Assembly: GCF_000020125.1 (NCBI RefSeq)
Contig: NC_010676.1
Location: 2,728,001-2,792,000 of the forward strand
Origin: Paraburkholderia phytofirmans PsJN
GTDB taxonomy: Bacteria; Pseudomonadota; Gammaproteobacteria; Burkholderiales; Burkholderiaceae
DNA: 64,000 bases
Direction of reading: 5' to 3'
Part shown: positions 401 through 44,866 of the stretch, one piece after another
Layout of the letters: each line of letters opens with the position of its first letter
Numbering within the stretch: position 1 is the stretch's first letter
The notes under the pieces: model-generated
The model's database searches: none
The model's input: only the letters and a program-made list of their open reading frames with translations
What the model was told of the DNA's origin: nothing
Translations under genes and position numbers: made by a program

Positions 401-427
401 ATCGATGTCTCCGTCTGATTGTTTTAA

Positions 428-441: not shown

Positions 442-1014
442 CACCATGAAAATTAGTATAGCAGCGCAGTAACAGGTGTCAACGCATCAACTAGCACCAG
501 CGCCTCGGGATGTACCCTAGGTACCCTAGGTAATCACACCATGAATTTAAGGTTGATTAAGTGAGACTAATGCGAGCGACGTCATCTTTGTGCTCTGACC
601 CACCGTAGCAGTACGTTATGATTTGCATTCTTGGCCAAAAGTAGTCGCCGCGCCCGGAAATTCGGCGCGCCGGTAATGTCTGTCGGCAGTACGACCACTT
701 TCGCCGCTACGTGAGGTCAACACGATTGACACGGGGCAGTTAGCTGTAGCCAGTGCTAACGTATGACGCAGCATTGAACCAGTCGCGGGCACGGAAGGTT
801 CGATTCCATAGCAGATCCAGAGTACTCTTTTTCAGCAGCGCACTCCCATTTCACGTTGCCTCAAACAGCCGCTGAGTCAAAACAACGGCTCCTCGTCTTG
901 GTCCCATCGTCGGCCTGACGGTAGCTCGGCCTGCAACGACAATCCCCTTGAATCAGACCGGGCAAGCGGATTTCCGGGACTACAATCCAAAGACCCACTT
1001 GAACACACATGTCG
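442..1014. other. Intergenic stretch without a convincing gene
   Basis: No reading frame here has a plausible start, composition and family match. Apart from the SDR operator at its left edge and a tandem 9-mer at 512-529, I see only unstructured sequence. The SDR and the dehydrogenase ending at 1015 are both on the minus strand, so this gap holds the SDR promoter and the 3' trailer of the dehydrogenase. Confidence 0.5.
512..529. repeat. Tandem duplicated 9-mer GTACCCTAG
   Basis: GTACCCTAG occurs twice head to tail (512-520, 521-529), followed by GTAATC. The unit contains CCTAGG, so the block is close to self-complementary. It lies about 110 bp upstream of the SDR gene. It may be a protein-binding site or a chance microrepeat. 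Confidence 0.5.
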
Positions 1015-1917: not shown

Positions 1918-1937
1918 TTGCTTTCCCGATAGGTAAA

Positions 1938-1984
1938 CTGGTTATACCAGAATTGACAATACTTTTTCCTGCCAGAAAACGCAA
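1938..1984 (-). promoter_or_regulatory. Promoter and operator of the 3-HIBADH-like gene
   Basis: On the minus strand TTGCGT (1984-1979) and TATTGT (1961-1956), 17 bp apart, make a possible sigma70 promoter. Five bases downstream lies the perfect inverted repeat CTGGTATAACCAG (1950-1938), where transcription would start. The half-sites CTGGT/ACCAG with a 3-bp spacer match the FadR-subfamily GntR consensus TNGTNNNACNA, so binding by the nearby regulator should repress the gene. Confidence 0.65.
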
Positions 1985-2058
1985 GCTAGGGCTAACATGG
2001 GAAAAAGCAGCTCAACGAGAGAAAACGCCTGAATTTTCAAACTTTCCCGGCAAGAATG

Positions 2059-2101
2059 TTGACGACGCGTTCTTTTATCTTTTAGACTCTGGTTGTACCA
2101 G
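2059..2101 (+). promoter_or_regulatory. Promoter and operator of the hydroxyacid dehydrogenase operon
   Basis: TTGACG (2059-2064) and TAGACT (2083-2088), 18 bp apart, are followed immediately by the perfect inverted repeat CTGGTTGTACCAG (2089-2101). The operator covers the expected transcription start, the same layout as at the MFS gene promoter. The first gene begins 22 bp further on. Confidence 0.7.
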
Positions 2102-2123
2102 ATAACCTTAAAAGGTTTTAACG

Positions 2124-3107
2124 ATGCCGGAAAAATTTAGAGTGCTGGCAACCAGCCCGATTCACCTATCGGCATTGCCGATTCTAGAGCCGAGTTGCGA
2201 GCTCGTCGTCGCGCCAGATGATAGCGAAGAGACCCTGCGCAAGTTCGTCGCGGATGCGGATGCACTAATCGTCCGCGTACGCCTGCCTGATGACATTTTT
2301 GATCACGCTCCTCGTCTTAAGGCATGCGTGCGTCACGGAGTTGGTCTCGATTTCATTCCCGTTGAGCGTGCGACCCGTGCAGATATTGCGGTCGCAAACT
2401 TGCCGGACTCAAATACGCAGGCGGTAGCCGAGCACGTGGTGGGTGCAATCCTTGCGATGGCCCGCGGCTTCGACCGGCTTCCCAGGGCTTGGCGCAACGA
2501 CGGCTGGCTGGTTCGACAGACATTCCAGGGCATCGAGCTGCGTGACCGCACTGTCGGCATCGTTGGTCTCGGACGAATCGGCCTGCAGGTTGCTGCAGCA
2601 CTGCATCACGGATTCGGTATGCGCGTGCTTGGCTGCGACAACGGCGCCCGCGAAGGATTGCCCTCTTACGTCGACCAAACCTCGATCGAAAATGTGTTCT
2701 CGGGCTCCGACTTCATCACATTGCACGCCCCCTTGGTCAAATCAACCCGGCATTTGGTAAATGCCGAACTGCTCTCGCTTGCGAAGCCCGGCGCGCTGCT
2801 CGTGAACGCCGCGCGCGGCGGTCTGATCGATGATGACGCCCTCGTCGCCGCACTGCGCTCCGGTCAGATCGGCTGCGCTGCACTGGACGTGTTTGAACCA
2901 GAGCCATTGCCCCCCGATCACCCCTACTGGTCAATCGACAATGTGTTGCTGACGCCACACGTTGCTGCGTTCACTTCCGAAGGTCTAGTAAGAATGAGTA
3001 CGGGTGCAGCTCGCGCCGTCGTCGAAATCCTTCACGGCCGACGCCCCGAGCATCTAGTAAACGAAGAGGTATGGCCACGTTATCTCGAACGCCGCGCTAC
3101 GCGCTGA
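2124..3107 (+). CDS. D-isomer-specific 2-hydroxyacid dehydrogenase
   Basis: 327 aa. The NAD-binding motif GLGRIG is at residues 148-153. The catalytic triad of the family is visible: Arg231 (AARGG), Glu258 or 260 (DVFEPEP) and His279 (TPHVA). Members reduce 2-keto acids to D-2-hydroxyacids or oxidise them, for example phosphoglycerate, glyoxylate/hydroxypyruvate or related compounds. It starts the operon with the enolase-superfamily enzyme (62 bp downstream) and cupin. The operator CTGGTTGTACCAG just upstream ties it to the GntR regulator at 4882. Serine biosynthesis (SerA) is less likely because of the catabolic context and the lack of an ACT domain. Confidence 0.9.
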   Translation: MPEKFRVLATSPIHLSALPILEPSCELVVAPDDSEETLRKFVADADALIVRVRLPDDIFDHAPRLKACVRHGVGLDFIPVERATRADIAVANLPDSNTQAVAEHVVGAILAMARGFDRLPRAWRNDGWLVRQTFQGIELRDRTVGIVGLGRIGLQVAAALHHGFGMRVLGCDNGAREGLPSYVDQTSIENVFSGSDFITLHAPLVKSTRHLVNAELLSLAKPGALLVNAARGGLIDDDALVAALRSGQIGCAALDVFEPEPLPPDHPYWSIDNVLLTPHVAAFTSEGLVRMSTGAARAVVEILHGRRPEHLVNEEVWPRYLERRATR

Positions 3108-3169
3108 ATCAGGAGCTTTTAACCTGTCGGCCTATCCACTCATTTATCTCTCATTTGTCAAAGCTCACA

Positions 3170-4303
3170 ATGAAAATAGCGGACATCGTTGCGTATCCCG
3201 TCACTGTCCCTGTGCCCCCCCAGTATCAGGTAAGTCTCGGCATCGGTCGGATGGTCAAACGCGACACAGTCATAGTAAAAGTGACAACGGATGAAGGAAT
3301 TGTCGGATGGGGTGAGTCGCATCACGGAAGGGCTCACCTCGCCATTGCCATGCTTGTGAACACGACTCTCAAGCAACTCGTGGCCGACCTTGAAGCTACC
3401 GATGTCAATGGCGTTTGGTCGCAAATATACCGGTATCAGCTGGCCTCTCATGGCATGGGGGCCGCATGTGCGGCCGCAATGAGCGGCATCGATATGGCGC
3501 TTTGGGACATTCGCGGCAAAGCAACCGGCTGGCCTCTGTATCGGTTGCTCGGCGGTACGTCTCGCAGCGTCCCAGCGTACGCCGGCGGAATCTGCCTTGG
3601 CTTTCAGACGCCCTCTGCGTTGCTCGAAGAGGTCGAAACAATGGTACGGCGAGGCTATAAGGCCATCAAGCTCCGTTTAGGAGACTCGCCCGCAAACGAC
3701 ATCGCACGTGTTGCAGCAGTGCGTGAAGCCTATCCTGAGCTCGACATTCTGACGGACGCTAATACAGCCTATTCGCTACGTGACTTTCGTATGGTAGCTC
3801 CGCATCTCGACGCAGCACACGTCGGCTGGCTAGAAGAGCCGTTTCCGGCGCACGATTACCGTAGCTATCGAGAAGCGAAGAAGATGTGCCGATTTGCACT
3901 TGCTGGCGGCGAGAACCATTTTACCCGCTTCGAATTCGCGCAATTAATAGACGCGGAGTCGATAACGATCCTTCAGCCCGATCTGTCGAAAGTGGGTGGA
4001 ATCAGCGAAGCGATGAAGGTCGCGACCATGGCATCCGTACAGAAACTGCCCGTTCATTGCCATTCGAGCATGGGTATCAATATGGCGGCAACGCTGCACG
4101 TTCTAAGTGCGATTGATAATGCCGGCTACTTCGAAGCAGACTGCTCGCTGTACAACCCGCTGCGCGACGATCTGATTGACTTCTCCTTTGCCATTAATGC
4201 AGACGGCACATTGCGGCCCAGCGAAAAACCAGGCATTGGCATAGAGATTAACGAGGATTTCATTAAACACCACGCAGGGTCCAGTGGCCCCGGGTTCGTT
4301 TGA
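3170..4303 (+). CDS. Enolase-superfamily enzyme (mandelate racemase/muconate lactonizing type), sugar-acid dehydratase or racemase
   Basis: 377 aa from the ATG at 3170; an in-frame ATG at 3071 lies inside the previous gene and would add 33 unrelated residues, and family members usually begin MKI. Ligands and bases of the superfamily are present: KLR at 167-169, metal ligands Asp196, Glu222 and Glu248, Asp271 and His298 as a mandelate-racemase-type dyad. Such enzymes abstract the proton alpha to a carboxylate, giving racemisation, cycloisomerisation or dehydration. In an operon with a hydroxyacid dehydrogenase and near an MFS acid transporter, acid-sugar dehydration is a reasonable inference. 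The ribosome site is weak. Confidence 0.88.
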   Translation: MKIADIVAYPVTVPVPPQYQVSLGIGRMVKRDTVIVKVTTDEGIVGWGESHHGRAHLAIAMLVNTTLKQLVADLEATDVNGVWSQIYRYQLASHGMGAACAAAMSGIDMALWDIRGKATGWPLYRLLGGTSRSVPAYAGGICLGFQTPSALLEEVETMVRRGYKAIKLRLGDSPANDIARVAAVREAYPELDILTDANTAYSLRDFRMVAPHLDAAHVGWLEEPFPAHDYRSYREAKKMCRFALAGGENHFTRFEFAQLIDAESITILQPDLSKVGGISEAMKVATMASVQKLPVHCHSSMGINMAATLHVLSAIDNAGYFEADCSLYNPLRDDLIDFSFAINADGTLRPSEKPGIGIEINEDFIKHHAGSSGPGFV

Positions 4304-4351
4304 CCCCGCAAACCGCCGTCTCTATTCAAAATCAAACTTTAGAGGAAAAGC

Positions 4352-4750
4352 ATGTCAACGACTACACCACAACGCACAATGGTTTCGCACCCCGCTTCGG
4401 ACAGCAGCGACTTCGAGGTGGGTCTGCGCCCATATTTTGCCTATCGCGATCTCGGTTTGAAGGAAGCAACAAATGGTGGATTCGTTGCGCACGTCATCCG
4501 TGCCGTACCAGGCAAACAAGCCGACCCGGAATGGCATACTCACAACACTTCGTTTCAGATCGTGTTCGTACTGCGCGGATGGATCGATTTCGAATTCGAG
4601 GACATTGGCGTGTCCCGTCTTACCGCCGGTTCAATTTGTTACTTCCCGTCCGGCGTGCGCCACCAGGTTCTCGCAAATAGCGACGATTTCGAACAGTTGG
4701 AGATCGTCTCACCGGCGAACTTCGAAACGCACGACGCCGAAAAGCCATAA
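4352..4750 (+). CDS. Small single-domain cupin protein
   Basis: 132 aa with a good ribosome site (AGAGGAAAAGC before ATG). The first cupin motif is seen as WHTHNTSFQ (His62, His64, Gln69 where Glu is usual) and the second as PSGVRHQV (His104), so a metal site is likely. Small cupins beside catabolic enzymes may be isomerases, sugar-binding accessory proteins or dioxygenase-like enzymes; the sequence does not decide. It is the last gene of the operon, 48 bp after the enolase-superfamily gene, and converges with the GntR gene. Confidence 0.82.
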   Translation: MSTTTPQRTMVSHPASDSSDFEVGLRPYFAYRDLGLKEATNGGFVAHVIRAVPGKQADPEWHTHNTSFQIVFVLRGWIDFEFEDIGVSRLTAGSICYFPSGVRHQVLANSDDFEQLEIVSPANFETHDAEKP

Positions 4751-4881
4751 AGCAAGCTGATCGCCAAGACAATCTAATTGTTAGACGCGACGCGCCGACC
4801 GCTCTTTGACACTTGCGCGTTGCGAATTATCGGGGTACACCCGCTTGGCCTAAGGTGGAATCCAAGAGCGGTGACGGTGTT

Positions 4882-5655
4882 TTATACAACCCCGTCAGCA
4901 GGTACCAACTTGCGCGTCGCGGACTTTTTCTTCGTCCGCTTCACCACAGATGAAGACGATGGCACCCCGTCGTCCGGCGACGCCGCAAACAGTGTACGGA
5001 AGTAGACGTCGACCCCCTTGATGTGCTGCCGTAGTATATTTTCTGCCTTGTCAACATCGCGTTCAGCGATCGCTGCCAGCAATTTACGATGATCGCTAAC
5101 TGATTGCCGGCAATGCTCATCAGAAGAAAAATAAACTTCACGACGCTTTCTCGACATCAGATAAAACACGTTGATGAAACGCGCAAACACATCGTTCTGA
5201 GTAGCTGCGACGATTGCGAGATGAAACTCCGCGTCCAGGCCTGCCAGTTTTTCACCGTTGCCCCGCGCAGCGACACAACGCTTCACGATGCCGGAGAGCC
5301 GCTCCAGGTCATCGTCTGTACGCCGCTCACAAGCTAGGCGAACCGCTTGCGTTTCGAGCAGACGCCGCAATTCGACGGCTTGGATTACTTCGTCCGGAGC
5401 CAAAGGCGCATCCGCCTCAGCGAACAGCACCATCGCCTCAATGCTACGGTCGGCTGAGCCGGCACGCAGGTAAATGCCGGATTTCGGACGCGCATCGACA
5501 ATGCGTAACGTATCAAGACGAATCAACGCTTCGCGCAATGCCCCCCGACTCATGCCGAACATCTCTGACATCTCGCGCTCGGAAGGAAGTTTGTCGCCTG
5601 GCTCAAAGCCTCGTTCATGAATGAGCTGCACGAGTTGTCGGACATTGTCCAGCAT
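4882..5655 (-). CDS. GntR-family transcriptional regulator, FadR subfamily (FCD domain)
   Basis: 257 aa from the ATG at 5655 (GGTGATTTC before it). An open frame continues upstream to an ATG at 5835, but that extension runs through the operator and promoter and has no GntR similarity, so 5655 is preferred. An N-terminal winged helix (GDKLPSEREMSEMFGMSRG) is followed by an all-helical FCD domain with metal/ligand-type acidic and His positions (AEFHLAI, HRKLL, LRQHI). It should bind CTGGTnnnACCAG sites and release them on binding a carboxylate effector, probably the pathway substrate. Its own promoter carries one site, which suggests autoregulation. Confidence 0.9.
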   Translation of the reverse strand: MLDNVRQLVQLIHERGFEPGDKLPSEREMSEMFGMSRGALREALIRLDTLRIVDARPKSGIYLRAGSADRSIEAMVLFAEADAPLAPDEVIQAVELRRLLETQAVRLACERRTDDDLERLSGIVKRCVAARGNGEKLAGLDAEFHLAIVAATQNDVFARFINVFYLMSRKRREVYFSSDEHCRQSVSDHRKLLAAIAERDVDKAENILRQHIKGVDVYFRTLFAASPDDGVPSSSSVVKRTKKKSATRKLVPADGVV

Positions 5656-5742
5656 GAAATCACCGCTAATGTAAGGCGCCGAATGTGTTTCAGCAGTTAA
5701 CAAAATAGGGCCGCACGATGTCGAACCGCACGGAAAATGACA

Positions 5743-5776
5743 AGAGTAAGCCTTTACATTGAACTGGTCAAACCAG
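5743..5776 (-). promoter_or_regulatory. Autoregulated promoter of the GntR gene
   Basis: The perfect inverted repeat CTGGTTTGACCAG (5776-5764) contains a candidate -35 box TTGACC (5771-5766). TACTCT (5748-5743) lies 17 bp on and could be the -10 box. The operator therefore overlaps the -35 rather than the start point, unlike the other sites. The start codon is about 80 bp downstream. Confidence 0.6.
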
Positions 5777-6680
5777 ATGACAAAGTTCCGCCGAATTCCG
5801 CATCGCGAAGCGCAGATATAGGTAGCAGCCACCATGGACCATTCATTGCCGTCATCGCCAAAATTCCCCGGTCAGCGCATGTCGACGCTCGCCAAGGCTT
5901 TTCGTGTCCGATACAAGAGAACATATACATCTTGACGGACGAAGCTCAAATCGCCCAGTTGTAAGCATCAACACCACGCCGATTCACGAGAATTCGCGTG
6001 AGCACCAACCACCTTGATTCTACTATCTCGGAATGCGGACATGCTCACCGCGTTAGGCGCTTCAAGGCACAACAAGATGTACCAACATGAAGTATCGCCT
6101 GGTCTTACCAGATTTCCGCGCGGTCACTTCGCTGCAAACTATCAGCGCCAATTTCTATGTGTCATACGGCGCAGCAACTGCAATGAGATTGCCAGTTTTC
6201 ACAGAGCACCCGCCAGCCGCTACCCCTCCCAATATTCCGCGCTAGGAATTCGTCCATCTCTAGTCCAGAGACTAGGCCTTATCGTGTGTTAACTATCTAC
6301 TTACATCGGCTGGAAATGGACGCTGCCTCATGACTGATCTCGCAGCATCTAAGAAACCAAAGCAGGCAAATGCGGGCGCTCTTATATTTCCTAGGTTCGA
6401 CGACCGACCTGCATCGGCATTTGCAGAGGAAGCTTCCAGCATCGCTGGCGAAAAATTGAGCCAACAGACGGGGCTGTGCCCGCATTTCCGGGCAGAAGGC
6501 TTCATCGGCCGCACTCGCAACATCACCGATTTTCAACATTTCTGGACCGACCACATTTCTTTAGTTGCGTCCTGAACTTCGCTGTGCATTCGGCAAAATA
6601 CTCCTATTTTTCAAATATATGACAATAAAATTGCTTTTTTTCTATTAAATACGCATTTAATGCGGTTACCACATAATCCA
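5777..6680. other. Long divergent intergenic region, no convincing gene
   Basis: About 900 bp between the GntR gene and the MFS promoter. Short open frames exist on both strands (for example around 6014-6292 and 6293-6575) but none has a recognisable family pattern or ribosome site. The clear signal is the operator at 6099-6111. The size and the unattached operator suggest that a gene was once here. Confidence 0.5.
6099..6111. promoter_or_regulatory. Orphan copy of the GntR operator
   Basis: CTGGTCTTACCAG is a perfect copy of the CTGGTnnnACCAG operator, about 320 bp upstream of the GntR promoter and 690 bp upstream of the MFS start. No promoter or gene is obvious next to it. It could act in DNA looping with the other sites or be left over from a deleted gene. 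Confidence 0.6.
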
Positions 6681-33363: not shown

Positions 33364-35250
33364 TCACGCCAACCCCTCCAGATCCTCGAGCCCGAAAACC
33401 CTCCCTGGTGGGAAAATAGCCGTTCTCTCAACGGCATTGCGGGCTAACTCGACATCCGGTACGAACATCACCACCGCCAGGTCCTTGACTGCACGCGAAC
33501 AGCAAACGTAGAAGAGCCGACGAGTGCGGTCTAGTACGGATTCAGCGCCGGATGCAATTTTCTCCTCGTCGTTTTCCGATAGCGGAACAAAGCCGAAGTA
33601 TTTCCCGTAGGAAAAGTGGCTGTGTGGTCCTTCCTCATCATCCAGGACGACCAGTACCCGCTCAAATTGAGCCCCCTTGACACCCTGTTGCGTGGCAAAG
33701 GGCGACTCTTCTTCGATGTACTTCCGGTACCCCCACAACTCAATAGCGTGACAGGCAAGAAAACCGACAATATGTTGGAATTCGCTGCTGCCGTTATCCA
33801 GCGGGTCTGGCATCAGGTAGGTATTGAATCGCTCATCAAGCCGCAACATCTCTCGGTCGCGAATGAGCCTCAACACATCCAGTATCGACGCGTGCGCCCC
33901 GTCCTCAAGGAGACCAGCAAGTGCGTCGACTCCCTCCTGGAGTTGACGAAGTACGCCTTGAATCTCTTGCTGCTGGATTCGATCCGTTTCGAGCTGAGGA
34001 CACGCCGACCGCAAAAGGCTCATGACCTTGAACTGGTCACCCGACCGTACGGCGATGACCAGTGGCAACACAAACTGCAGCAATGGACGCAGCGGCCAAG
34101 CGCTGCCGTCATCCAGGCCATCCTTCAAGCTGGCAGGTGCTCCATCGTGGAGCGCCGCGTAGATGTTCGCGAACCCTAGGCGCGAGGCTGCCATTCGATG
34201 AACCAGGACCAACAGGCGAACGTCTGCCTCAGCGTTATCGCTCGACCACAACGGGTCGGCGGTCGAGTTTCTCAGCCACAACCGCACGGCCTGCAGACCC
34301 GCTGTGCGATTTCCGTCCGCTGGTAGCACAAACATCTGCGCGGATCCGGTCACTGGTTGCAGCACACCATCGACCTCGAGCGCCCGGCCTCTCGTCTGTT
34401 CAAGACCGTCGCCCGTCGCCCGGATTGCGTTCACGACGCGGAGCACCGATGTCGGACACCGGAAATTCTCCGGTTTTGTGATTTCACGCCACTCACGCTC
34501 CCGCGCGATTGGTCCAGCTCCAGTGGTGTAAATCTTCTGCATGGGATCACCAAAAAAACCCACACACAACTGCGGCTGGTCGGCCGCGACGCAACGCAGT
34601 GCACTTACTACGACTGGATTGGTATCCTGGCTTTCGTCCACGAAAATGAATGGGAAACGGCCGGCGATGATCTGGCGCAGTAGGGGACGTTCGACGATGA
34701 GGGCCGGCCCGAGCTTTAAAATGTCATCATGTCCCAGCACGCCTTCGGCATAGTCGCTCCCCGTGCCATAAGTGAATCGCTCCACGCGCGCAACGGTTGT
34801 CCTTACCTCCTCGAGTTCGGCAATCTCACGAATCAGTCGCTCTCGCGTTCCCGCTCGCGTCCCCCGTCTGTCGCGGTGTTCCGCCTTCTCCGCGATTTTC
34901 TCCCGAATGCGATCGACGACCCAGAGCTTGATATCCGCCTGAAAACTGCGTACGAGTAGCCACAGGAAGCTGTGGATGGTCGAGACGTGAAACGTCGAAG
35001 CATTCCCAACGTCTCCTGAAATTTCAGCCACGGCGACTTCCGTGTATGTGATGCAGGCTATCTGCTGACCTGCCCGACGAAGCATCGCACCACGCGACAC
35101 AGCGAGGTGTTGCAGCGCCTTGACTAGCGAGGTCGTCTTGCCCGACCCGGCACCGGCCACCATGACGAAGGATCGAGCAGGCTGTTCATCGAGACATTCG
35201 CGGACCTCGATGTCTGCCGGCGTGTCGGGAGACCCGATGCGACTGGTCAT
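33364..35250 (-). CDS. UvrD-like helicase, partner of the OLD nuclease (GajB-like)
   Basis: 628 aa with SF1 motifs: VAGAGSGKTTS near residues 31-41, CITYTEVAVAEI (motif Ia), FVDESQDTN (Walker B), GFFGDPMQKIY (motif III) and VKGAQFERVLVVLDDE (motif V). It is smaller than true UvrD. Its ATG overlaps the stop of the OLD gene by 4 bp, the arrangement seen in Gabija (GajA-GajB) and in class 2 OLD-UvrD pairs. In Gabija the helicase senses DNA ends or nucleotide depletion and activates the nuclease. The assignment rests on gene pairing plus motifs. Confidence 0.82.
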   Translation of the reverse strand: MTSRIGSPDTPADIEVRECLDEQPARSFVMVAGAGSGKTTSLVKALQHLAVSRGAMLRRAGQQIACITYTEVAVAEISGDVGNASTFHVSTIHSFLWLLVRSFQADIKLWVVDRIREKIAEKAEHRDRRGTRAGTRERLIREIAELEEVRTTVARVERFTYGTGSDYAEGVLGHDDILKLGPALIVERPLLRQIIAGRFPFIFVDESQDTNPVVVSALRCVAADQPQLCVGFFGDPMQKIYTTGAGPIAREREWREITKPENFRCPTSVLRVVNAIRATGDGLEQTRGRALEVDGVLQPVTGSAQMFVLPADGNRTAGLQAVRLWLRNSTADPLWSSDNAEADVRLLVLVHRMAASRLGFANIYAALHDGAPASLKDGLDDGSAWPLRPLLQFVLPLVIAVRSGDQFKVMSLLRSACPQLETDRIQQQEIQGVLRQLQEGVDALAGLLEDGAHASILDVLRLIRDREMLRLDERFNTYLMPDPLDNGSSEFQHIVGFLACHAIELWGYRKYIEEESPFATQQGVKGAQFERVLVVLDDEEGPHSHFSYGKYFGFVPLSENDEEKIASGAESVLDRTRRLFYVCCSRAVKDLAVVMFVPDVELARNAVERTAIFPPGRVFGLEDLEGLA

Positions 35251-37535
35251 CGCGCTTCCTCTACGTGCAACCCTCCCGGCTCCTCAGGTTGCTCCTGAGG
35301 GGTGATCTCGCCTTCCAGCCAAACAAGTCCTTCAGCGATGTATGTGGGCACCCGCCACGCGTCCGGTTGGTGGCCCAACAAACCCAGTGCGAAGTCGGTT
35401 TTTTTGAAGCTACTGCCCTTGACGCGCTTATGAACACGTTCGACGAGCGTACTCAAATCCTTCCCTGCAGCGCCCGGTATTCGTAGACCCAGATCCCGCT
35501 GTTCATTCGCCTGGCACCACGGAAGATTCTCAAGCGCGAAGGCCTCTTCCAGCGTCCGCCCGGCCAGTTGAAGGGTTTCCTCACGCCAGGTAACCGCTGT
35601 GCGGTATTGATAGGCGACGCGAACCAATGCCGTTCCTTCGCCTCCTCTCGGCTGAATCTTCTCCTCCGGCGTTACCGCGAAAAGGTCCGCGATGGTCCGA
35701 CGCCTGGGCAACCATTGGATCAGCATCTGATTGGATGTGACGGCGCCTGCGAGCTCTGGTAGGCAAGCCTTTCCTGCTCTTCTTCCAGCTCCCTCCTCGT
35801 CTTCGTCTTCGTCGTCCGCATCATTTTCCTCCGGCGGCCGTGCCTCATTGTCTACCTCATCAGCAACCACCGGTAACGCGGCTTCAATAGGATCGCCGGC
35901 CACGACATCAGGGACTGGCGGACCGACGACGCTATCGAGGTCGGTGACAATTAACGCTGTGAGCCCAAGGAATTCTATCAACGGCTTGAATCTGTGCCCG
36001 AATGCGCCACCGACCTCGAGAATGCTTAAATATGTCGACCGGAGTTTTGGCGCGGCGATCTCGATCATCTGCGGAAGCAGCAGTCGTTCGACGTTGCCTT
36101 CAACAAGTACCGCGGCGTCAGCAAAGAACAGGTCGCAATGCGTAAGCTTGAGATAGCGTTCGAGGAAGTTTCGTTCTCCCTCCGGCGTCCGGTCATAAAA
36201 TGACGACAAACTTAGTATCTCCGATCGATTACCAGTTTGACTTCGCCGAAAATATCTAATCGGGCGGAACCCTCGTTCGTACAAAATGTGCGAGGAGTGT
36301 GTCGTGACCACGACCTGACTACTGCAATGCCGCTGATCCTCGCCCTGGAGTTGAAGAATATCGAGAACTTTCCTGATGAAAGCCTGTTGAAGCTGTGCAT
36401 GCAGATGCGCTTCAGGTTCCTCGATAAAAACCAGATGGAGCAGTGGGCGGCCATCGGTAATAGCAAGCCATTGAGCATGCAGGTCTAGCAACTCCACAAC
36501 CATGAAAATGAGATTCTTGAACCCCAAGCCGTTATAGTGATCGGGCAACGTCGGCGGATCGATGCCTTGCTCTTCGGCATCACCAAGCGCGTAGTGAACG
36601 CGCGCGCCTCGGTCGCTCATAATGGCGGCCGGATCCAGCGCAGACCGTATCATCAAGCGGGGGTTACTAAGACCTGGGTAGCCAAGTGTTGCGAGGCTTC
36701 TCAGGGTTGGCTCAAAGACCCGTTCGAGGTGGTCATTGAGCATTGCCTCCGAATTGGCGAGCGCCCTGAGCACATCCAGGTCGTCCTCCTTTTGCTCAAG
36801 ATTACGCTCGTAAAAGCGGCTTAGGACGCGAGACAGATCCTCGGCTCGCGCGCCGCCTGGACTGTCGGACAAGTGACGCTGTGCATGCAGGAAGTCGACC
36901 CGGATCAACGAATTCAGTATCTCCCGTCCGCTGCGACTCTCGCTTGGCATCAGAGCAACCGGCACATAGTCCGCGTCGGCGGTCATGTCAGCCGCAAAAC
37001 GCGCCGGATCGAGCACATAGTAGCGAAGCTCGTATTCTTTGTTCAGATCCTCGCGAAGAAAATCGTGCATATTCCTGGGTGCCGGATCGAAAGCAGCCGC
37101 TTGGCCGTCTTCACGTGCAACAGCAGCCAGCGCTCGCCTCCGCATCTCCGTGTACCTTGCCTTCGTCGCCTCCGGATCGATTGGCACGTATGCGATACGC
37201 ATACCCACGAGCGCTCCCTGCCAAGCCAGGCTAGGCAGGAGGTCAATCACCCTGTGAATATCAGTCCCGTCGATATGTAGCCAGATATCGATCGACATCG
37301 TTGGAAGTGTTGCGCCGGCCACACCCTCTCCGAAAGCCACAAATTGCGGCCACAGCTCGGCACTGAAATCATGGAGAGTGAATCTGCCCTTCCCGGTAAA
37401 GAGCTGAAGGGCATGGCCGGCAGAGGTCTTTCCGCTATTGTTGGCGCCAACGAATATGGAGATATCCGGTGCGAGATCGATGACAACGTCGCGCAACCTA
37501 CGAAAATTCCTGATGCCAAGCTTCTGCAGATGCAT
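35247..37535 (-). CDS. OLD-family ATPase-TOPRIM nuclease (GajA-like)
   Basis: 762 aa. N-terminal ABC-type ATPase: Walker A GANNSGKT at 30-37 and LVFIEEPEAHLHAQ as Walker B, followed by VVTTHSSHIL. A TOPRIM nuclease half follows: LVEGNVERLLLPQM with the metal-binding Glu, then LIVTDLDS. Between TOPRIM elements lies a very acidic stretch coded at about 35794-35832, which most OLD proteins lack. At 762 aa it is longer than GajA (about 580). With the coupled UvrD-like gene it makes a Gabija-like defence pair that would nick or degrade phage DNA. Confidence 0.85.
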   Translation of the reverse strand: MHLQKLGIRNFRRLRDVVIDLAPDISIFVGANNSGKTSAGHALQLFTGKGRFTLHDFSAELWPQFVAFGEGVAGATLPTMSIDIWLHIDGTDIHRVIDLLPSLAWQGALVGMRIAYVPIDPEATKARYTEMRRRALAAVAREDGQAAAFDPAPRNMHDFLREDLNKEYELRYYVLDPARFAADMTADADYVPVALMPSESRSGREILNSLIRVDFLHAQRHLSDSPGGARAEDLSRVLSRFYERNLEQKEDDLDVLRALANSEAMLNDHLERVFEPTLRSLATLGYPGLSNPRLMIRSALDPAAIMSDRGARVHYALGDAEEQGIDPPTLPDHYNGLGFKNLIFMVVELLDLHAQWLAITDGRPLLHLVFIEEPEAHLHAQLQQAFIRKVLDILQLQGEDQRHCSSQVVVTTHSSHILYERGFRPIRYFRRSQTGNRSEILSLSSFYDRTPEGERNFLERYLKLTHCDLFFADAAVLVEGNVERLLLPQMIEIAAPKLRSTYLSILEVGGAFGHRFKPLIEFLGLTALIVTDLDSVVGPPVPDVVAGDPIEAALPVVADEVDNEARPPEENDADDEDEDEEGAGRRAGKACLPELAGAVTSNQMLIQWLPRRRTIADLFAVTPEEKIQPRGGEGTALVRVAYQYRTAVTWREETLQLAGRTLEEAFALENLPWCQANEQRDLGLRIPGAAGKDLSTLVERVHKRVKGSSFKKTDFALGLLGHQPDAWRVPTYIAEGLVWLEGEITPQEQPEEPGGLHVEEAR

Positions 37536-38012: not shown

Positions 38013-38103
38013 AGCCGATAGCGGACAGACGTCAAGGGGCGAGGGACCGTGTTGCCCGCACCCCTCCCTCGCCTATTTCCTTGACGTCTGTCCGCTATCG
38101 GCT
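38013..38103. repeat. 91-bp hairpin with 25-bp perfect stem
   Basis: Positions 38013-38037 (AGCCGATAGCGGACAGACGT...) and 38079-38103 are perfect inverted copies of 25 bp. After a 5-base bulge on one side, GGCGAGGG (38038-38045) pairs with CCCTCGCC (38066-38073), leaving a 20-base loop. Such a long exact stem outside any gene is not expected by chance. It is about 140 bp upstream of the DUF932 start, so it may be a transcription terminator or leader for DUF932, a recombination site, or a structure used in plasmid replication or transfer. Confidence 0.85.
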
Positions 38104-38244: not shown

Positions 38245-38569
38245 ATGCAACTCGCTTCTTCTTTCCGTTACGGCTCCCCGACGCTGCGCGCTGACTCGCC
38301 CCTGTCGGACGATCAGATTCGCCGCATTGCCCCGTCCATCTTCGCGGACAGCAAGCACGAAAGCCGCTCCGAACGCTACACCTACATTCCGACCATCGAC
38401 GTGCTGCGCGGTCTGCGTAATGAAGGTTTCCAGCCTTTCATGGTCTGCCAGACGCGCGTGCGGCACGACGACCGTCGCGAGTACACGAAACACATGCTTC
38501 GGCTTCGTCACGCTGACCAGATTACCGGCGAGGAAGCCAACGAAATCGTGCTGCTGAACTCGCACGATG
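38245..38569 (+). pseudogene. DUF932 plasmid protein, 5' part
   Basis: 108 codons from ATG 38245 (GGAG at a good distance). The text MQLASSFRYGSPTLRADSPL, FADSKHESRSERYTYIPT and FQPFMVCQTRVRHDDRREYT is characteristic of DUF932 proteins. The frame reaches the conserved LLNSHD motif and then enters the recombinase element, ending 15 codons later at 38616. The missing part is at 44358-44866. DUF932 proteins are common on conjugative plasmids next to ParB-like genes; their function is not known. Confidence 0.88.
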
Positions 38570-38579
38570 TATGCGCAAG
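38564..38579 (+). repeat. Left end of the recombinase element: target repeat and terminal repeat
   Basis: ACGATG (38564-38569) is repeated directly at the other end (44352-44357). The first 10 bases inside, TATGCGCAAG (38570-38579), match the last 10 inside bases CTTGCGCGTA (44342-44351) as an inverted repeat at 9 of 10 positions. Confidence 0.82.
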
Positions 38580-38655
38580 CCAAGAGCGATTTCCCGATAC
38601 TCTCAGGTTGCTTTAAAACGGCCATCAACACGAACACGGCACGAGGATCTCGGCG

Positions 38656-40104
38656 ATGACGGCAAGACGAACCACCATCCGGCAACTGGCACTGACCGAG
38701 GTCGCTAACCGCGACACTCCAGGTGCGGCGGCGATCAGCATCACCATGCCCAAGGGCGGCACCATCTATCACACGGTCCCGCTCGCAGACCCCGACACCG
38801 GCAAGCGGCGCGACGCCCGTCCGCGGTGGATCGCAGGTAGCTTCCCTCTCTTTCCCGTTGTCCGGCTCGCGGACGGTGCGCCGTGGGCTGAGGCGAACCT
38901 CTGGCTCATCGATATGATGGAGTCGAAGTCCTCGCCCAACATGCTGACGTTCGCCAGCATCGCTGACGACCTGGTGGCATTCCGTCGTTACCTGGATGAC
39001 GAAGGCGTCGACTGGCTGACGTTCCCCGCGAACAAGCGGCAACGCCCAACCTACCGCTACAGCGCCTCGATCAGGCTGGCCGTGCAGGCTGGCGAACTTT
39101 CTCCGGGTGTTGCCAGGCGCCGTATGGGCGCCGTGGTGCGCTTCTATCGCTGGCTCATGGCAGAAGCGGGCTTCAAGCCTGCGAACGCGCCGTGGGTCGA
39201 ATCTGGCCGTTTCATCGAGTTCAGGGACCAGAAGGGCTTCAGCAGCACGATCGAGGTCAAGACCACCGACCTGTCGATCAGTGGCCGGCGCGCAGATGAC
39301 CCGTGGGACGATCACATCCAGGACGGCGGTCGCCTGCGCCCGCTCCCCTCATCCGAGCAGTCGGTGCTGCTCGAATCGTTAGCCACTCTCGGCAATTCCG
39401 AGATGACGCTCGTTCATCTGTTCGCGCTGTTGACTGGCGCTCGCATCCAGACGGTACTGACCGTGCGTGCGAAACACGTAATGCGCAAGCCGGGCGAGTT
39501 TCACGGCGGCGACATACGTCTCGCCTGCGGGCCAGGTACAGGTATCGACACGAAGGGCGATGTCAAGGGCGTGTTGCACCTGCCGCGCGGTTTCTACGAG
39601 CGGCTCTACATCTATGTGCACAGCGATCGAGCTCGCAAGCGTCGCCAACTGGCAGACGGCGGCGATCACTTCGACCAGCCGCTCTTTCTAAGCCATCGCG
39701 GTGCGCCGCTCTACGAGGACCGCGGGTCGCGTGGCCCGCTCAGCACCGGCCCGCAGGTGCGCCGCCATGTCAAGACCGGGCAGGCCGTTCGCCAGTTCAT
39801 CAGGGACGAACTGTTGCCCATGATGCGCGTGCAGCTCGGCAACCCCAGGTATGAGTTCAGCTACCACGACCTGCGAGCGACCTTTGGGCTCAATACGGTC
39901 GACGCGATGACAGCGAGCAAGACGAGCTACACGCGGGCGCTCGATCAGTTGCGACAGTTGATGTGGCACGTACAACCATCTACGACCGAGCGCTACCTCG
40001 CTTACCGCGAGAATCGTAAGCTGTTCGATGCTGTTCAGGATGGCTGGGGTGCGCACCTGTCGACGCTGGTCACACGCACCCTCGACACTGCGGTGACAGT
40101 ATGA
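38656..40104 (+). CDS. Tyrosine recombinase, first of the trio
   Basis: 482 aa. The catalytic set is complete: Arg in LLTGARIQTVLTV, a Lys-containing beta strand (DTKGDVKGVLHL), HDLRATFGLN (His-x-x-Arg) and the final His plus Tyr in WHVQPSTTERYLAY. The N-terminal half should bind the core site. It would exchange strands at the element ends through a 3'-phosphotyrosine link, together with the next two proteins. It is the first gene inside the left end, with GAGG upstream, and its stop overlaps the next start by 4 bp. Confidence 0.88.
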   Translation: MTARRTTIRQLALTEVANRDTPGAAAISITMPKGGTIYHTVPLADPDTGKRRDARPRWIAGSFPLFPVVRLADGAPWAEANLWLIDMMESKSSPNMLTFASIADDLVAFRRYLDDEGVDWLTFPANKRQRPTYRYSASIRLAVQAGELSPGVARRRMGAVVRFYRWLMAEAGFKPANAPWVESGRFIEFRDQKGFSSTIEVKTTDLSISGRRADDPWDDHIQDGGRLRPLPSSEQSVLLESLATLGNSEMTLVHLFALLTGARIQTVLTVRAKHVMRKPGEFHGGDIRLACGPGTGIDTKGDVKGVLHLPRGFYERLYIYVHSDRARKRRQLADGGDHFDQPLFLSHRGAPLYEDRGSRGPLSTGPQVRRHVKTGQAVRQFIRDELLPMMRVQLGNPRYEFSYHDLRATFGLNTVDAMTASKTSYTRALDQLRQLMWHVQPSTTERYLAYRENRKLFDAVQDGWGAHLSTLVTRTLDTAVTV

Positions 40105-41984
40105 ACCGCCTTTACGACGAAGTGCACATGCCGCTCGCGGAGGGCACAATGCTGCTGCACCCCGAGCGAGCGCTGCTCAAGTGGGAAGGCATGAGCAGCC
40201 GTTCCGATATCGGGCAGATCTGCTACCTGAGGCGTGACACGTCAAGCTCGCACCGCGCGCGACGAACTTTCGATATCCTGAGCTTCAGCATCGAACGCGT
40301 CAGGGTCGTACGCCTGCTGGTGACGCAGCTTTCCGGGCGTATGGCCCTTGGCGCGATGCGTCCGGCAACGATCTCGATAGCGCTGCGCGTCGTGCTTGAT
40401 TTCGTCAATTGGGCCGACAGACAGGGCTTGCATCAGGTGCTTTGTGACGAGAAGGCTACGGCGGAGGCAGTTCATCGCTACTTCCGCGAGAAACGCGAAC
40501 AGGTTTCGCTGGGCAATCTGAACCGCAATTCCGTCGGCCACGATCAGCGTAATCTGTTGTCGATGCTCCGTGAGTTTTTCGGAAACGACGACTTCTGCAC
40601 CGACGCGAGGGTGCTGCGCCGCCAACTGGATGCCTCTGTGCCGACTGCTGTGCCTGACACCGAGGCACAAGCCGCCCTGCTCGCGTGGGCTGACGCGCTC
40701 TTCACCGGCATCAGCACCCTGGTGCTCGACTTCAAGTCGTACCCGGTGCGCGTAAGCACGGCGCGTGGCGAGAGTCTTTGCCTAGTTCCGCACAGACACC
40801 ACCGTCGTGAAGACGACAACTTGCACGGCCACCTGCTTGGCTGGAACCTGGAGACCGGGGAGCTGCGCACGCGGGAAGAAATCGCGACGCACATGGCTGC
40901 GGCAGGCGCTAAAGATCCTCGTGCGCGTGCGTGGATGATCGCCTCGTTTGCGGCTAAACATCTTAGGGCTGCGAACGAGGATGCGCAATCAGCGATCCGT
41001 CGCTCGCACGCTTCAATGGCGACCCTTTGCTTCGCCGCGCTGTTCCTGGCCGAAACGGGCGTCAACCTCGCGCAACTGCTGGCCATGAAGTGGAGCCCGG
41101 AGCTTGTCGCGAGCCTGCAGGATACGTCAGTTGTACGTCAGACGTTTCGCGAGATCAAGTACCGTGCAGGCGGGAAGGGGGTGACGTTCACCGTCTCGCT
41201 GGGCTTCATGCCGAAGCTCAAGACGTATCTGGCGTTGCGAGAGTATCTGGTGCAGAACGCGGACTGCGACGCGTTGTTCATTCTAGCCGGGCATTACGCA
41301 AAGCGACGACGGCCAATGGGTCTCCCAACTCAATTTCTGGCTCAGCTTTACAGTCGACTCGATACGCTCGGGATCGTGCTACCGCGCATTACCGCACGTC
41401 AGTGGCGTGCGGCGAAGCAGGATTGGGCGGTGAGCAACCACGACCCTGTCGTCGCAGCCAGACTGATGGGCCACTCCTTGGCCACGGCGCTGCGCTCATA
41501 CTCGAACGGCACAGACGCCGCGCACAAGGCCGAGATGGGCGCGTTCCTCGCTTCGGTCGAGAAGACCGTGCTGAAGCCCGGCAACGACCCGGCGGGCAGC
41601 ATCAGGAGCGCGGTGGGCGTCTGCATCGAGTTCCACAAACCTGCGCCGATCGCAGCTTCAGTCACCGTACAGCCTGACTGCCGCTCGACCGAAGGATGTC
41701 TCTTCTGCGACCAGTACCGCGTGCACGCCGACGCCGCCGACATCCGCAAGCTGCTGGGCTGCCGTCACTGCGTCAGGCTCGTGAGCGGGCGTGCTGACTC
41801 GATCGAGCAGTACGACACATCGTTCGGCGCCGTGCTGCGGCGCGTTGACTTCCTGCTGGATGAGCTGCGCAAGCGCGACGCCGCGCTGGTCGATCAGATC
41901 GAGCACGACGTTGATATCGAAGGGAATCTGGACGCGTTCTGGTCGGCCAAGCTCGACCAGCTTTACGAACTGGGAGTGGCATGA
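40101..41984 (+). CDS. Tyrosine recombinase-like protein, second of the trio, active site degenerate
   Basis: 627 aa. The box I region reads AETGVNLAQLLAM, with Asn where the catalytic Arg belongs; box II reads TARQWRAAKQ, with Arg but no leading His; the last box LMGHSLATALRSYS still has His and Tyr. The C-terminus adds a probable zinc finger (CLFCDQYRVH, CRHC). It resembles the large Tn554 TnpB-type proteins in size. The lost Arg suggests a structural or DNA-binding role beside active partners. Start and stop overlap both neighbours by 4 bp. Confidence 0.8.
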   Translation: MNRLYDEVHMPLAEGTMLLHPERALLKWEGMSSRSDIGQICYLRRDTSSSHRARRTFDILSFSIERVRVVRLLVTQLSGRMALGAMRPATISIALRVVLDFVNWADRQGLHQVLCDEKATAEAVHRYFREKREQVSLGNLNRNSVGHDQRNLLSMLREFFGNDDFCTDARVLRRQLDASVPTAVPDTEAQAALLAWADALFTGISTLVLDFKSYPVRVSTARGESLCLVPHRHHRREDDNLHGHLLGWNLETGELRTREEIATHMAAAGAKDPRARAWMIASFAAKHLRAANEDAQSAIRRSHASMATLCFAALFLAETGVNLAQLLAMKWSPELVASLQDTSVVRQTFREIKYRAGGKGVTFTVSLGFMPKLKTYLALREYLVQNADCDALFILAGHYAKRRRPMGLPTQFLAQLYSRLDTLGIVLPRITARQWRAAKQDWAVSNHDPVVAARLMGHSLATALRSYSNGTDAAHKAEMGAFLASVEKTVLKPGNDPAGSIRSAVGVCIEFHKPAPIAASVTVQPDCRSTEGCLFCDQYRVHADAADIRKLLGCRHCVRLVSGRADSIEQYDTSFGAVLRRVDFLLDELRKRDAALVDQIEHDVDIEGNLDAFWSAKLDQLYELGVA

Positions 41985-43864
41985 ACAACACGCTGATCAC
42001 GCCGATCGCAGAGCGCCCCGACTGGTATCGGATCGAGGATGATACGGTCGTCACGCGCGACAAGGCTGGGAATGCCGTTTCGCTGTTTGGTGACGACGCC
42101 TGGGACATCGGCGCATACGCGATTGGGCCGCGCAGCACCGGCCTCCATTTTAGGGGCCACCTGCCTGACGGCGTGACCCGTGCTCTTTCAGAGGCGACCA
42201 CGCGTCAGTGGAAGCAGATCATGTACTTTCTGATGCATGAAGCAACCGATATGGTACCGGCGTCCAGTACGCTTCAGGCTCGTTCGGTTTATCTGAGGGA
42301 ATTCGCATTCTTTGCCGCCGAACGGCAGCTTACGCTCTACGAGGGGCTGTCCAATGTCCCCATTGTTCTGGACTATGTGGCACAAGCGGGGATGGAAAGG
42401 AAGGCCCAACGCCTTCATTCAATTCTGGTGCAGCTTCACCGTCTGGGCGTCGGGACCACCGGACTGTGTGTGCCGCTGGCCCAACTACATAAGCCTCTGC
42501 TCGATCGCTTCGCGCAACGCGCTGAATACGCACAATACCCTGTCATCCCGACGCGGATCTATCAGCACTTCCTGTCGACCTGTGAGCATGACCTCGGCGT
42601 CGCTGAGGACGTCGCTGACATCCTGTCGGATTACCTCGCACGCGTGTACGCCGGCGAGAATCCAGACGTCTCTGCAGCGGTCGCAACGAATGCTGTGCAC
42701 TTCGGGTGCAAAGACTCCCCTTACGTCGTGTCGTCGCTTGTGGCGTCGATCCGCGCGCTATGCCAGCTTGTCATCCTGGCATTCACCGGCATGCGCGCGA
42801 GGGAAGCGGAGAACCTGCCGTACGACTGCCTGAGCGAGACCCGTCTGGATGGCGTGACGCACTACACCATCGAGGGCGTCACAACCAAGCTGTCGGGTGG
42901 TCGTCCCAGGCGCGCGCGCTGGGTGACCAGCCCGCTCGCCGCTCGTGCCGTCCGGCTTGCGCAGCGGCTGTCGGGCGAGGCTCACCGTGCGCACGGCGCA
43001 CCGAGCTACGCCGAATCAACGGACGGGTCACACCTGCTGTTCTGCCGGATGGGTCTGCGTTATGGGTACGTGGCAAACCGTGGGGCGAGTACCCTGCATC
43101 TCGATGTCGAAGCGTTTCGTGAGCGCGTCTTCCCGACGATCACGGTCGAGGACATTGCCGAACTGAAGCGTGTCGACATGCACCGCGCGTGGGAAGACGA
43201 ACCGAAGTACGCGCCCGGGCAGCAGTGGCCGTTCACGCGCCACCAGCTTCGCCGGACCCTGGCCCTCTACGCGCATCGGAGCGGACTCGTGACACTGCCG
43301 ACGCTCAAGCGTCAGTTGCAGCACATCACGCAGGAAATGAGCATGTACTACGCCCGCGGCTCGGCGTTCGCGAAGGGCTTCATCGACATCGACAGGACCC
43401 ACTTCGCGAAGGAATGGGTTGAGACACAGAGCCTGTCCGAATACCTTGCATACGCCCAGCAGGTGCTGTTCTCCGACGAGCGGCTGTTCGGCGGGCACGC
43501 AGCGTGGACGCAGAGCCGTGCCGTGCAGGCCTCGCCCGTGTCGGTTTATTCGCGCGACCAGACGGTGAGGATGTTCAGGAAGGGCGAGCTGGCGTACCGC
43601 GAGACGGTGCTGGGCGGCTGTGCCAGCATCGAACCGTGCAAGTCGACACCGCTCGACTGGATGCGTCTGGATTGTCTTGAGTCGAACTGCCGTAACCTCG
43701 TGGTCGTGCCGTCGAAGCTTCAGCGCGTGATCAAGGCGCAGCAGGTTACGGTCGGGAAGCTGCGCGCTGTCGACGATGCGAGCGTCGAATATCGTATCGA
43801 GGTCCGGACGCTGCAACGACTGCTTGATGCGCAGGAGAGACTGATCAAACCGGAGGTAACATGA
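41981..43864 (+). CDS. Tyrosine recombinase, third of the trio
   Basis: 627 aa. Catalytic residues are in place: FTGMRAREAENL (Arg), a Lys-containing strand (GVTTKLSGGRPRR), RHQLRRTLALY (His-x-x-Arg) and QHITQEMSMYYARG (His, Tyr). A cysteine set in the C-terminal quarter (GGCASIEPCK, DCLESNC) suggests a metal site like that in the second protein. It has the length of TnpB of Tn554. The stop overlaps the small coiled-coil gene by 4 bp, so all four proteins are likely made in fixed ratio. Confidence 0.87.
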   Translation: MNNTLITPIAERPDWYRIEDDTVVTRDKAGNAVSLFGDDAWDIGAYAIGPRSTGLHFRGHLPDGVTRALSEATTRQWKQIMYFLMHEATDMVPASSTLQARSVYLREFAFFAAERQLTLYEGLSNVPIVLDYVAQAGMERKAQRLHSILVQLHRLGVGTTGLCVPLAQLHKPLLDRFAQRAEYAQYPVIPTRIYQHFLSTCEHDLGVAEDVADILSDYLARVYAGENPDVSAAVATNAVHFGCKDSPYVVSSLVASIRALCQLVILAFTGMRAREAENLPYDCLSETRLDGVTHYTIEGVTTKLSGGRPRRARWVTSPLAARAVRLAQRLSGEAHRAHGAPSYAESTDGSHLLFCRMGLRYGYVANRGASTLHLDVEAFRERVFPTITVEDIAELKRVDMHRAWEDEPKYAPGQQWPFTRHQLRRTLALYAHRSGLVTLPTLKRQLQHITQEMSMYYARGSAFAKGFIDIDRTHFAKEWVETQSLSEYLAYAQQVLFSDERLFGGHAAWTQSRAVQASPVSVYSRDQTVRMFRKGELAYRETVLGGCASIEPCKSTPLDWMRLDCLESNCRNLVVVPSKLQRVIKAQQVTVGKLRAVDDASVEYRIEVRTLQRLLDAQERLIKPEVT

Positions 43865-44223
43865 GCGAAACGATGGCCGACTACTACGCCGCCCTTGAGC
43901 GGCTGAAGAAGCGCAAGGGTGCGCGTATCAACAACGACACTGTGGCGATCGAGGCTGGCCGCAAGAAGGGCTGCATCAAGAAGTCACGCCCGCAGTTCGC
44001 TGAACTGATCGAAGCGATCGACGCGGCCAACGCCGTAGCCGAGCGACCTAAGCTTGAACTGAACGATCGTCTGAACCGCGCGAAAGGCGACGCAAAGGAT
44101 TTGCAGGCACAGCTTGACGAGTCGCTGGCCCGGGAGCTCGCACTACTGCGACAGGTATTCAGCCTGCGCAAAGAACTGGCCGCGCTGCGTGGCGGTAGCG
44201 TCCTGCCCTTGCATTCGAGCTAG
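43861..44223 (+). CDS. Small coiled-coil protein of the recombinase element (TnpC-like)
   Basis: 120 aa. The first half is basic (LKKRKGARI, GRKKGCIKKSRPQF), the second half is a heptad-rich coiled coil from about residue 60 (LNDRLNRAKGDAKDLQAQLD). Tn554 ends with tnpC, a protein of about this length that influences efficiency and orientation of insertion; position, size and coiled coil agree. Direct homology is not shown. Confidence 0.7.
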   Translation: MSETMADYYAALERLKKRKGARINNDTVAIEAGRKKGCIKKSRPQFAELIEAIDAANAVAERPKLELNDRLNRAKGDAKDLQAQLDESLARELALLRQVFSLRKELAALRGGSVLPLHSS

Positions 44224-44341
44224 ATTGAGATGGACACTCCGACGGCCATTCTGTCCACTTTTACCATCCAATCAGATGGACACCTGGCCGACAGTTGACT
44301 CCGGTATTTTCAAGGCCACAGCGGATGTCCATTGTTTTTCT

Positions 44342-44357
44342 CTTGCGCGTAACGATG
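44342..44357 (+). repeat. Right end of the recombinase element
   Basis: CTTGCGCGTA (44342-44351) is the inverted partner of the left end with one mismatch, followed by the direct repeat ACGATG (44352-44357). The DUF932 frame resumes at the next base. Confidence 0.82.
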
Positions 44358-44866
44358 GCACCAGCAGTTACCAGATGCTCGCGGGCATGCTGCGCTTCGT
44401 CTGCCAGAACGGCATGGTAGCGGGCGACAACGTCGCCGATATCCGCGTCCCGCACAAGGGCAACATCGTTCAGAACGTAATCAGCGGCGCATTCGACGTG
44501 CTCGACGGCTTCGACCTGATCCGCGAGCAGAAGGAAGGCATGCGTGCCGTCACGCTCGACCGCGACGAACAGCACGCGTTCGCCCGCTCCGCACTGGCGC
44601 TGCGCTACGACCCGACCGACTCAGAGGCACCGGCCCCTGTCACCGACAGCCAGCTACTTACCCCGCGCCGCTTCGAGGATCGTCGCGACGACCTCTGGAC
44701 CGTCTTCAACCGCGTCCAGGAGAACCTCACCAAGGGCGGCCTGCATGGACGTTCGCGCACGGGTCGCTCGATGTCCACCCGCCCCATCACCGGCATTGAC
44801 CAAAACGTAAAGCTCAACCGCGCCCTCTGGATGCTCGCGGATGCAATGCGCCAGATGAAGGCATAG
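44358..44866 (+). pseudogene. DUF932 plasmid protein, 3' part
   Basis: About 169 codons continuing the 5' fragment: GTSSYQMLAGMLRFVCQNGM, VADIRVPHKGNI, RRDDLWTVFNRVQENLTKGG and a conserved end GIDQNVKLNRALWMLADAM. An open frame runs upstream to 44114 only by crossing the element. Without its first third this piece has no proper start, so the gene is inactive unless the element excises. It is followed by a hairpin and the ParB-like gene, its usual neighbour on plasmids. Confidence 0.88.

Follow-up and report, generated by a model that had tools for sequence, protein, structure and literature searches.

The 64,000-nucleotide stretch of Paraburkholderia phytofirmans PsJN analyzed here (the window; contig NC_010676.1, positions 2,728,001 to 2,792,000) holds a mobile element of 5,782 bp (38570-44351) that interrupts a DUF932 gene and resembles the strand-biased circularizing elements (SEs) SE-6283 and SE-6945 of Vibrio alfacsensis. 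The hexamer ACGATG flanks the element on both sides, the left junction (attL) reading ..CTCGC[ACGATG]TATGCGCAAG and the right junction (attR) CTTGCGCGTA[ACGATG]GCACC... An earlier note on this DNA had described a precise insertion, and removal of the element together with one ACGATG does restore an open frame of 277 residues reading NSHDGTSSYQ. Its alignment with an intact gene from an Azospira plasmid covers 277 positions, one of them a gap, at 72% identity. The ends are, as also proposed there, imperfect 10-bp inverted repeats that match at 9 of 10 positions; over longer spans the match is 10/13 and 13/19, the repeats of SEs being 13-19 bp long. Passenger genes are indeed absent, the last stop codon lying 128 bp from the right end. 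Subterminal repeats of the ATGGACA/TGTCCAT type, recognizable in most of the right ends listed for relatives, are possible candidate protein-binding sites.

The element is composed of four genes, adjacent ones overlapping by 4 bp, that encode in order an active tyrosine recombinase (IntA-like), a recombinase-fold protein lacking a full active site (Tfp-like), a long active recombinase (IntB-like) and a small protein (Srap-like). The label "recombinase trio" given by the earlier note holds for three recombinase-like proteins, yet the full catalytic set is found in only two of these, and there is a fourth gene. In alignments that include SE-6945 and SE-6283 of plasmid pSEA1, the source of our SE reference genes, the IntA-like catalytic residues R263, K300, H404, R407, H438 and Y447 are invariant in 9/9 rows, as are R272, K303, H421, R424, H448 and Y457 of the IntB-like protein in 8/8 rows. 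In the Tfp-like protein the first catalytic Arg is missing, as is the His of HxxR, but Tyr467 and a nearly invariant Arg436 are retained, and four cysteines near its C-terminus (C508, C527, C533 and C536) are invariant in 10/10 rows, both SE Tfps included. An AlphaFold model of this protein built from 24 rows has a mean predicted local distance difference test score of 80.8 and a predicted template modeling score of 0.50; its top 15 matches in the PDB are all recombinases or integrases (XerA, XerH, integron and lambda integrase, Cre), with XerA the best at E 5.7e-4 and the sole match at E ≤0.001, and with low TM-scores of 0.16-0.24 by query length. No family name was obtained for any of the four proteins from Pfam or NCBIfam at E 0.001. 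Compared by sequence with solved structures, the IntB alignment gave no match, and the IntA alignment gave three weak ones, two of which are a recombinase and an integrase. Homologue searches returned 89 Tfp homologues from 7,997 scored candidates and 280 Srap homologues, 120 of them listed, while distant IntA relatives with 25-41% identity also occur in Pseudomonas, Klebsiella, Vibrio and other plasmids.

Table 1. Positions in the window of the element and of the DUF932 gene that it interrupts.
Feature	Position	Strand	Basis
5' half of the interrupted DUF932 gene, ending ..LLNSHD	38245..38569	+	Pfam PF06067 profile positions 1-74; frame restored
6-bp core ACGATG of attL, adjoining the left end	38564..38569	+	Junction comparison
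Whole element, 5,782 bp	38570..44351	+	Identical at three genome places
Left terminal inverted repeat TATGCGCAAG	38570..38579	+	Common to left ends of relatives
intA-like gene, tyrosine recombinase, 482 aa, full catalytic set	38656..40104	+	Alignment with SE proteins
tfp-like gene, 627 aa, predicted tyrosine-recombinase fold	40101..41984	+	Alignment and structure model
intB-like gene, long tyrosine recombinase, 627 aa, full catalytic set	41981..43864	+	Alignment; profile match to SE IntB
srap/tnpC-like gene, small protein, 120 aa	43861..44223	+	Position; aligns with fourth genes of both SEs
Subterminal repeats ATGGACA (44230, 44276), TGTCCA (44252), TGTCCAT (44326)	44230..44332	.	Positions computed
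Right terminal inverted repeat CTTGCGCGTA	44342..44351	+	End comparison
6-bp core ACGATG of attR (footprint position)	44352..44357	+	Junction comparison
3' half of the interrupted DUF932 gene, starting GTSSYQML..	44358..44866	+	PF06067 profile positions 71-227

Three copies of the element, 100% identical to one another, are found in the host genome on three contigs, each positioned at the same codon of a DUF932 gene, and their flanks differ in sequence already close to the element ends. A PF06067 search of this genome returned six half-matches, corresponding to three DUF932 genes with no intact one among them. The same codon is occupied on a P. fungorum plasmid, whose DUF932 gene is split by a fourth identical copy (L004). 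The 3' half of that gene departs from the family text soon after the junction, past 9794, and the gene seems decayed. Among plasmid records 16 match the element, 10 of them over at least 80% of the query; eight of these ten match exactly from the first to the last element base (query 7-5788), and the other two extend at most 6 bases further. Burkholderia sp. 4M9327F10 carries an element of 88% identity (L065) and shows two left junctions at the DUF932 codon (L066, L076) whose 112-bp stubs match L065 throughout the 100 bases that were compared; two matching right junctions suggest that both insertions are full copies. A right-end remnant occupies the same DUF932 place on a B. ubonensis plasmid (L016). 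The proposal that a conserved plasmid gene is chosen at a fixed codon is thereby borne out, by DUF932 in 4/4 identical copies and in 2/2 left junctions of the 88% lineage.

DUF932 genes are widespread on plasmids: the 5' half finds a match in 722 of 72,556 records. When uninterrupted genes were inspected, the continuous NSHDG text expected by the earlier note was found in 12 of 30 full-length loci, with ACGATG as the 6-mer in eight, ACGACG in three and ATGATG in one; because the other 18 gave no match to the motif pattern, the target seems to be one type of DUF932 gene. The 4M9327F10 genome (G399) contains two full-length DUF932 matches in addition to two split ones, and the one full-length gene read (L089) lacks the target motif. 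Four genomes in which relatives of the element occupy other targets (G330, G213, G389 and G270) hold seven DUF932 matches of full or nearly full length, and none that is split; of the two that were read, L110 has the motif and L096 does not.

Matches at E 0.001 were found in 67 of 398 genomes of the family, many of them short. The left-end pattern of the clade, which detects close relatives only, gave 30 stretches in genome contigs, all from Burkholderiaceae, and 0 matches in viral contigs. Junctions and Pfam matches place relatives of ~84-88% identity outside DUF932, usually with a single gene family for each lineage: IS91 transposases (Y2_Tnp, Zn_Tnp_IS91), IS5 transposases (DDE_Tnp_1), IstA of IS21 (Mu-transpos_C_2), a tyrosine integrase with DUF3701, and an rve-like transposase, for which L011 has a weak rve_3 match below the cut-off and L010 and L034, without a Pfam match, were grouped by text. 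Two further targets without a family name are labeled ZnR and WFPAW, and additional unnamed kinds are represented by L061, L069, L040/L070, L073/L075/L079 and L036/L081. The insertion at unrelated sequences that the earlier note regarded as refuting site choice is therefore half realized: other genes are occupied, and since each lineage keeps mostly to one conserved family, site specificity stands with DUF932 as one target among several. The comparison made there with Tn554, which targets radC and carries resistance genes, is apt. Several lineages split transposase genes of other elements and are parasites of parasites.

Target and element lineage are closely linked. On an element tree of 25 rows bearing 11 target labels, the targets require 11 changes against a least possible 10, and 0 of 200 shuffles came as low; the rve-like transposase, IS91, integrase and IS5 groups each form one side of a branch with 100 in the Shimodaira-Hasegawa-like approximate likelihood-ratio test. 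The tree omits the window's own copy L003, which is identical to L004, and the unlabeled loci L001, L002, L012, L014, L021, L022, L028, L031, L032, L035, L062, L063, L077 and L080, and retains the pairs L005/L006 (identical) and L011/L033 (nearly identical). Element length is 5.78-6.05 kb in 27 of 28 measured loci, some elements being present in two collections, and the 28th, of 9.4 kb, contains a recombinase trio insert. In C. necator H16 pHG1 (L013), three integrase genes, probably a recombinase-in-trio (RIT) element, lie within the intA of a relative that is itself inside an IS5 transposase gene.

The flanking 6-mers are equal in 14 of the 21 copies for which both were available (a count that leaves out L069, L012, L031-L033 and copies cut by contig ends), while in four they differ synonymously in the target frame and in three the difference changes one or two residues. 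A further pair, outside this count, is that of copy 2 of 4M9327F10, with ATGACG on the left and ACGATG on the right, both of which read His-Asp. These differences look as if 6 bp may have been brought along from a previous insertion into a gene of that family. The target arms do not resemble the element ends, with a mean of 4.2 matches at 13 sites versus 5.1 for random positions. A weak left-arm pattern is seen at these sites, several of which belong to the same gene family: A at -7 in nine, A at -6 in nine, C at -5 in 10 and a pyrimidine at -1 in all 13.

Taken with the gene content, these features make it probable that the element is SE-like, representing a Betaproteobacterial, minimal and target-specific form. 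Gene order, catalytic pattern, the small fourth gene, imperfect inverted repeats (their length aside), a 6-bp core and few selected targets are shared with SE-6283 and SE-6945: the operon runs intA, a tfp without a full RHRY, a long intB and srap, and the 6-bp core is present at both ends with insertion at few selected sites. Homology to SE IntB is found directly, a profile-to-profile comparison (hhalign) giving E 2e-18 and a probability of 99%. For Tfp, a profile of 20 rows matches SE Tfp with E 1.3e-4 and a probability of 54% over 252 columns, and crossed-pair control profiles gave E 0.26 and 0.43. Identities to the two SEs in alignments are 22-23% for IntA, 23% for IntB and 17-22% for Srap, which lie near the 20.5-26.6% reported for SE-6283 versus SE-6945 proteins by blastp (PMC10214605, cited here, like PMC5385486 and PMC3414803, for part of its text). 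The element differs from the SEs in its Betaproteobacterial hosts, in a more distant Tfp, in having lineages aimed at transposase and plasmid genes (one SE was seen in insJ of IS3) and in having no cargo, with 5.8 kb versus a published SE median of 15.7 kb. In the open literature searched, four papers and otherwise listings, with subscription papers outside that search, we found no description of its DUF932 insertion site.

Several results weigh against this assignment. With a profile of six rows the Tfp match to SE Tfp falls to E 0.014 and a probability of 3%, and identity to the founding SE Tfps is weak, at 15-16% in the alignment. SEs have been reported only from Gammaproteobacteria, and the cited text reports no Tfp or Srap homologues in Betaproteobacteria (PMC10214605), whereas every stretch with our left-end pattern is from Burkholderiaceae. 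On the element tree the DUF932, WFPAW and ZnR groups take two changes each. The 6-mers are also uneven with regard to the polarity described for SEs, which carry their own 6-mer at attL and that of the donor at attR (PMC10214605). L004 fits this rule in that its attL 6-mer recurs in the closest (97.8%) of the 15 intact genes compared, but different 6-mers stand in the second and third closest (97.5% and 96.6%). For copy 2 of 4M9327F10, copy 1 would be a compatible donor, but in the closest intact genes (76-82%) neither 6-mer is seen at attL. L005 is opposite to the SE polarity: its attR 6-mer GCAGCC is present in two of three intact IS91 relatives (86%), the third having GGAGCC and a fourth fetched locus showing no site, and its attL 6-mer is that of the sister copy L006.

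Other known element types share part of this organization. GInts, the four-gene ginABCD islands that require all four genes for site-specific integration and for which 6-nt staggered cuts have been proposed, resemble the element in the types of gene present, in being site-specific and in having a 6-bp core, and they have been reported from Betaproteobacteria (PMC10214605; PMC5385486). By the published text on GInts, against which the comparison was made rather than against GInt sequence, ginA and ginB are active and the protein without the first Arg is ginC, named third, while in our element the second gene is the inactive one; GInt cargo of 2.5-70 kb also contrasts with the narrow size range given above. 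We therefore regard membership in the GInts as quite unlikely. The "trio" of the earlier note, taken as an RIT element, fares worse. Three adjacent overlapping recombinase-like genes and three identical copies would agree with it, and three identical RIT copies have been counted in B. phytofirmans PsJN (PMC3414803). RIT proteins, however, are 315-410 residues long and all have the catalytic tyrosine (PMC10214605), the elements are ~3.5 kb (PMC3414803) and the cited text describes no fourth gene, versus proteins of 482, 627 and 627 residues, a fourth gene and 5.78 kb here; that our element is an RIT is hardly credible. Only one RIT-like trio (open frames of 413, 463 and 360 residues) was found in the host genome among seven match places, five of which were viewed, and for this reason the published PsJN "RIT" copies may be this very element; the section of PMC3414803 on those copies, as cited here, makes no mention of a DUF932 target. 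The trio lies directly beside the element copy on contig C3 (L133, G000:C3:257500-263529). A two-frame recombinase module of 315 and 396 residues is also present in two copies (L131 and L132, on G000:C3 and C1) that are 99.9% identical over 2,554 bp. The Tn554 family (tnpA, tnpB, tnpC) shares one ordinary and one long tyrosine recombinase, a small protein, a site preference and the movement of 6 bp from donor to target (PMC10214605). Membership in it was rejected on published gene content, tnpABC having no Tfp counterpart (PMC10214605) and the element having a tfp-like gene.

The three host copies could also have arisen by a single insertion in DUF932 followed by spread to the other two genes through homologous recombination rather than transposition. 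The homology among DUF932 genes and the presence of several in a genome speak for it, but the three copies have different flanking sequence already near the ends, so that no long flank was copied along, and the second lineage and the P. fungorum plasmid are hit at the same codon; moreover the attL and attR 6-mers can differ in the second lineage, an outcome not expected if an entire junction had been converted. Such spread is very improbable. Less remote, though still unlikely, is a classical integrase element of the cut-and-paste type, whose excision leaves an empty site; for GInts such a site was reported from three strains but not from the others studied (PMC5385486). None of the three DUF932 genes found in the host is free of the element, which is easier to explain by copying movement, and the element offers no room for a gene beyond the four, although no search for a Xis-like gene was made.

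For SE-like movement of this element, we propose that a circle would be formed by IntA and IntB, which would bring the inverted-repeat ends together on either side of a 6-bp core. The circle is predicted to integrate at a fixed 6-bp core within a conserved codon run of the target gene, here the His-Asp of DUF932, so that one flanking 6-mer would be the target's own and the other would be carried from the previous site. Tfp, perhaps with IntB, may choose the target, as suggested by association and by one natural chimera. The circular intermediate, the copying mode and the role of each protein are those we infer from the gene set and the junctions.

The extended form of this proposal is that Tfp, with its recombinase fold and incomplete active site, and perhaps IntB, constitute an exchangeable target selector, and that a shared catalytic chassis radiated in Burkholderiaceae into lineages that each specialize in a single conserved run of codons, located in plasmid genes or in genes belonging to other mobile elements. 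We hold this only tentatively and think it rather doubtful. In comparisons of 19 chosen rows, without targets lacking a family name, the nearest neighbor has the same target for tfp in 17/18 rows, intB in 14/18, intA in 13/18, srap in 11/18 and the left 86 bp in 8/17, so that target appears to follow tfp best, a lead and not a proof. The P. mimosarum chimera (L030) is 1.3% from the integrase-targeting lineage at positions 301-600 and closer to the rve-transposase lineage from 1501 on; it uses the target of the rve-transposase lineage, which is that of its tfp-intB-srap block, although the left end and a large part of intA derive from a lineage aimed elsewhere. A window-wise comparison, also of the 19 chosen rows, found IntA to be without target signal, but it draws on nine hand-chosen within-target pairs, three of them with L030. 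Over all pairs, with L030 left out and within-target pairs more than 3% apart in Tfp, IntA does show the signal (0.087 within versus 0.117 between targets), as do Tfp (0.122/0.190), IntB (0.099/0.156) and Srap (0.065/0.092), and the selector reading is held less probable because of it. Single-gene trees of the same 19 rows separate the genes little, with seven changes for tfp and eight each for left end plus intA, intB and srap (minimum 7, shuffled minimum 10-11). The ratio of nonsynonymous to synonymous substitution rates (dN/dS) points the same way: in each of the four genes it hardly differs between the 17 pairs that share a target group and the 169 pairs that do not, among pairs with intA dS of at least 0.05 and named target families.

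An SE-like identity of the element would extend this type of movement to Betaproteobacteria and to a minimal form made up of recombination genes and ends alone. Natural lineages with different and sharply defined targets would make site choice by SEs, GInts and Tn554 testable through gene exchange.

Two features neighbor the insertion. A perfect 24-bp inverted repeat (GCCGATAGCGGACAGACGTCAAGG) is positioned upstream of the DUF932 gene at 38014-38037 and 38079-38102, and a Gabija anti-phage pair adjoins the element on the minus strand at 33364-37535 (GajA E 6e-257, GajB E 5e-230, PADLOC).

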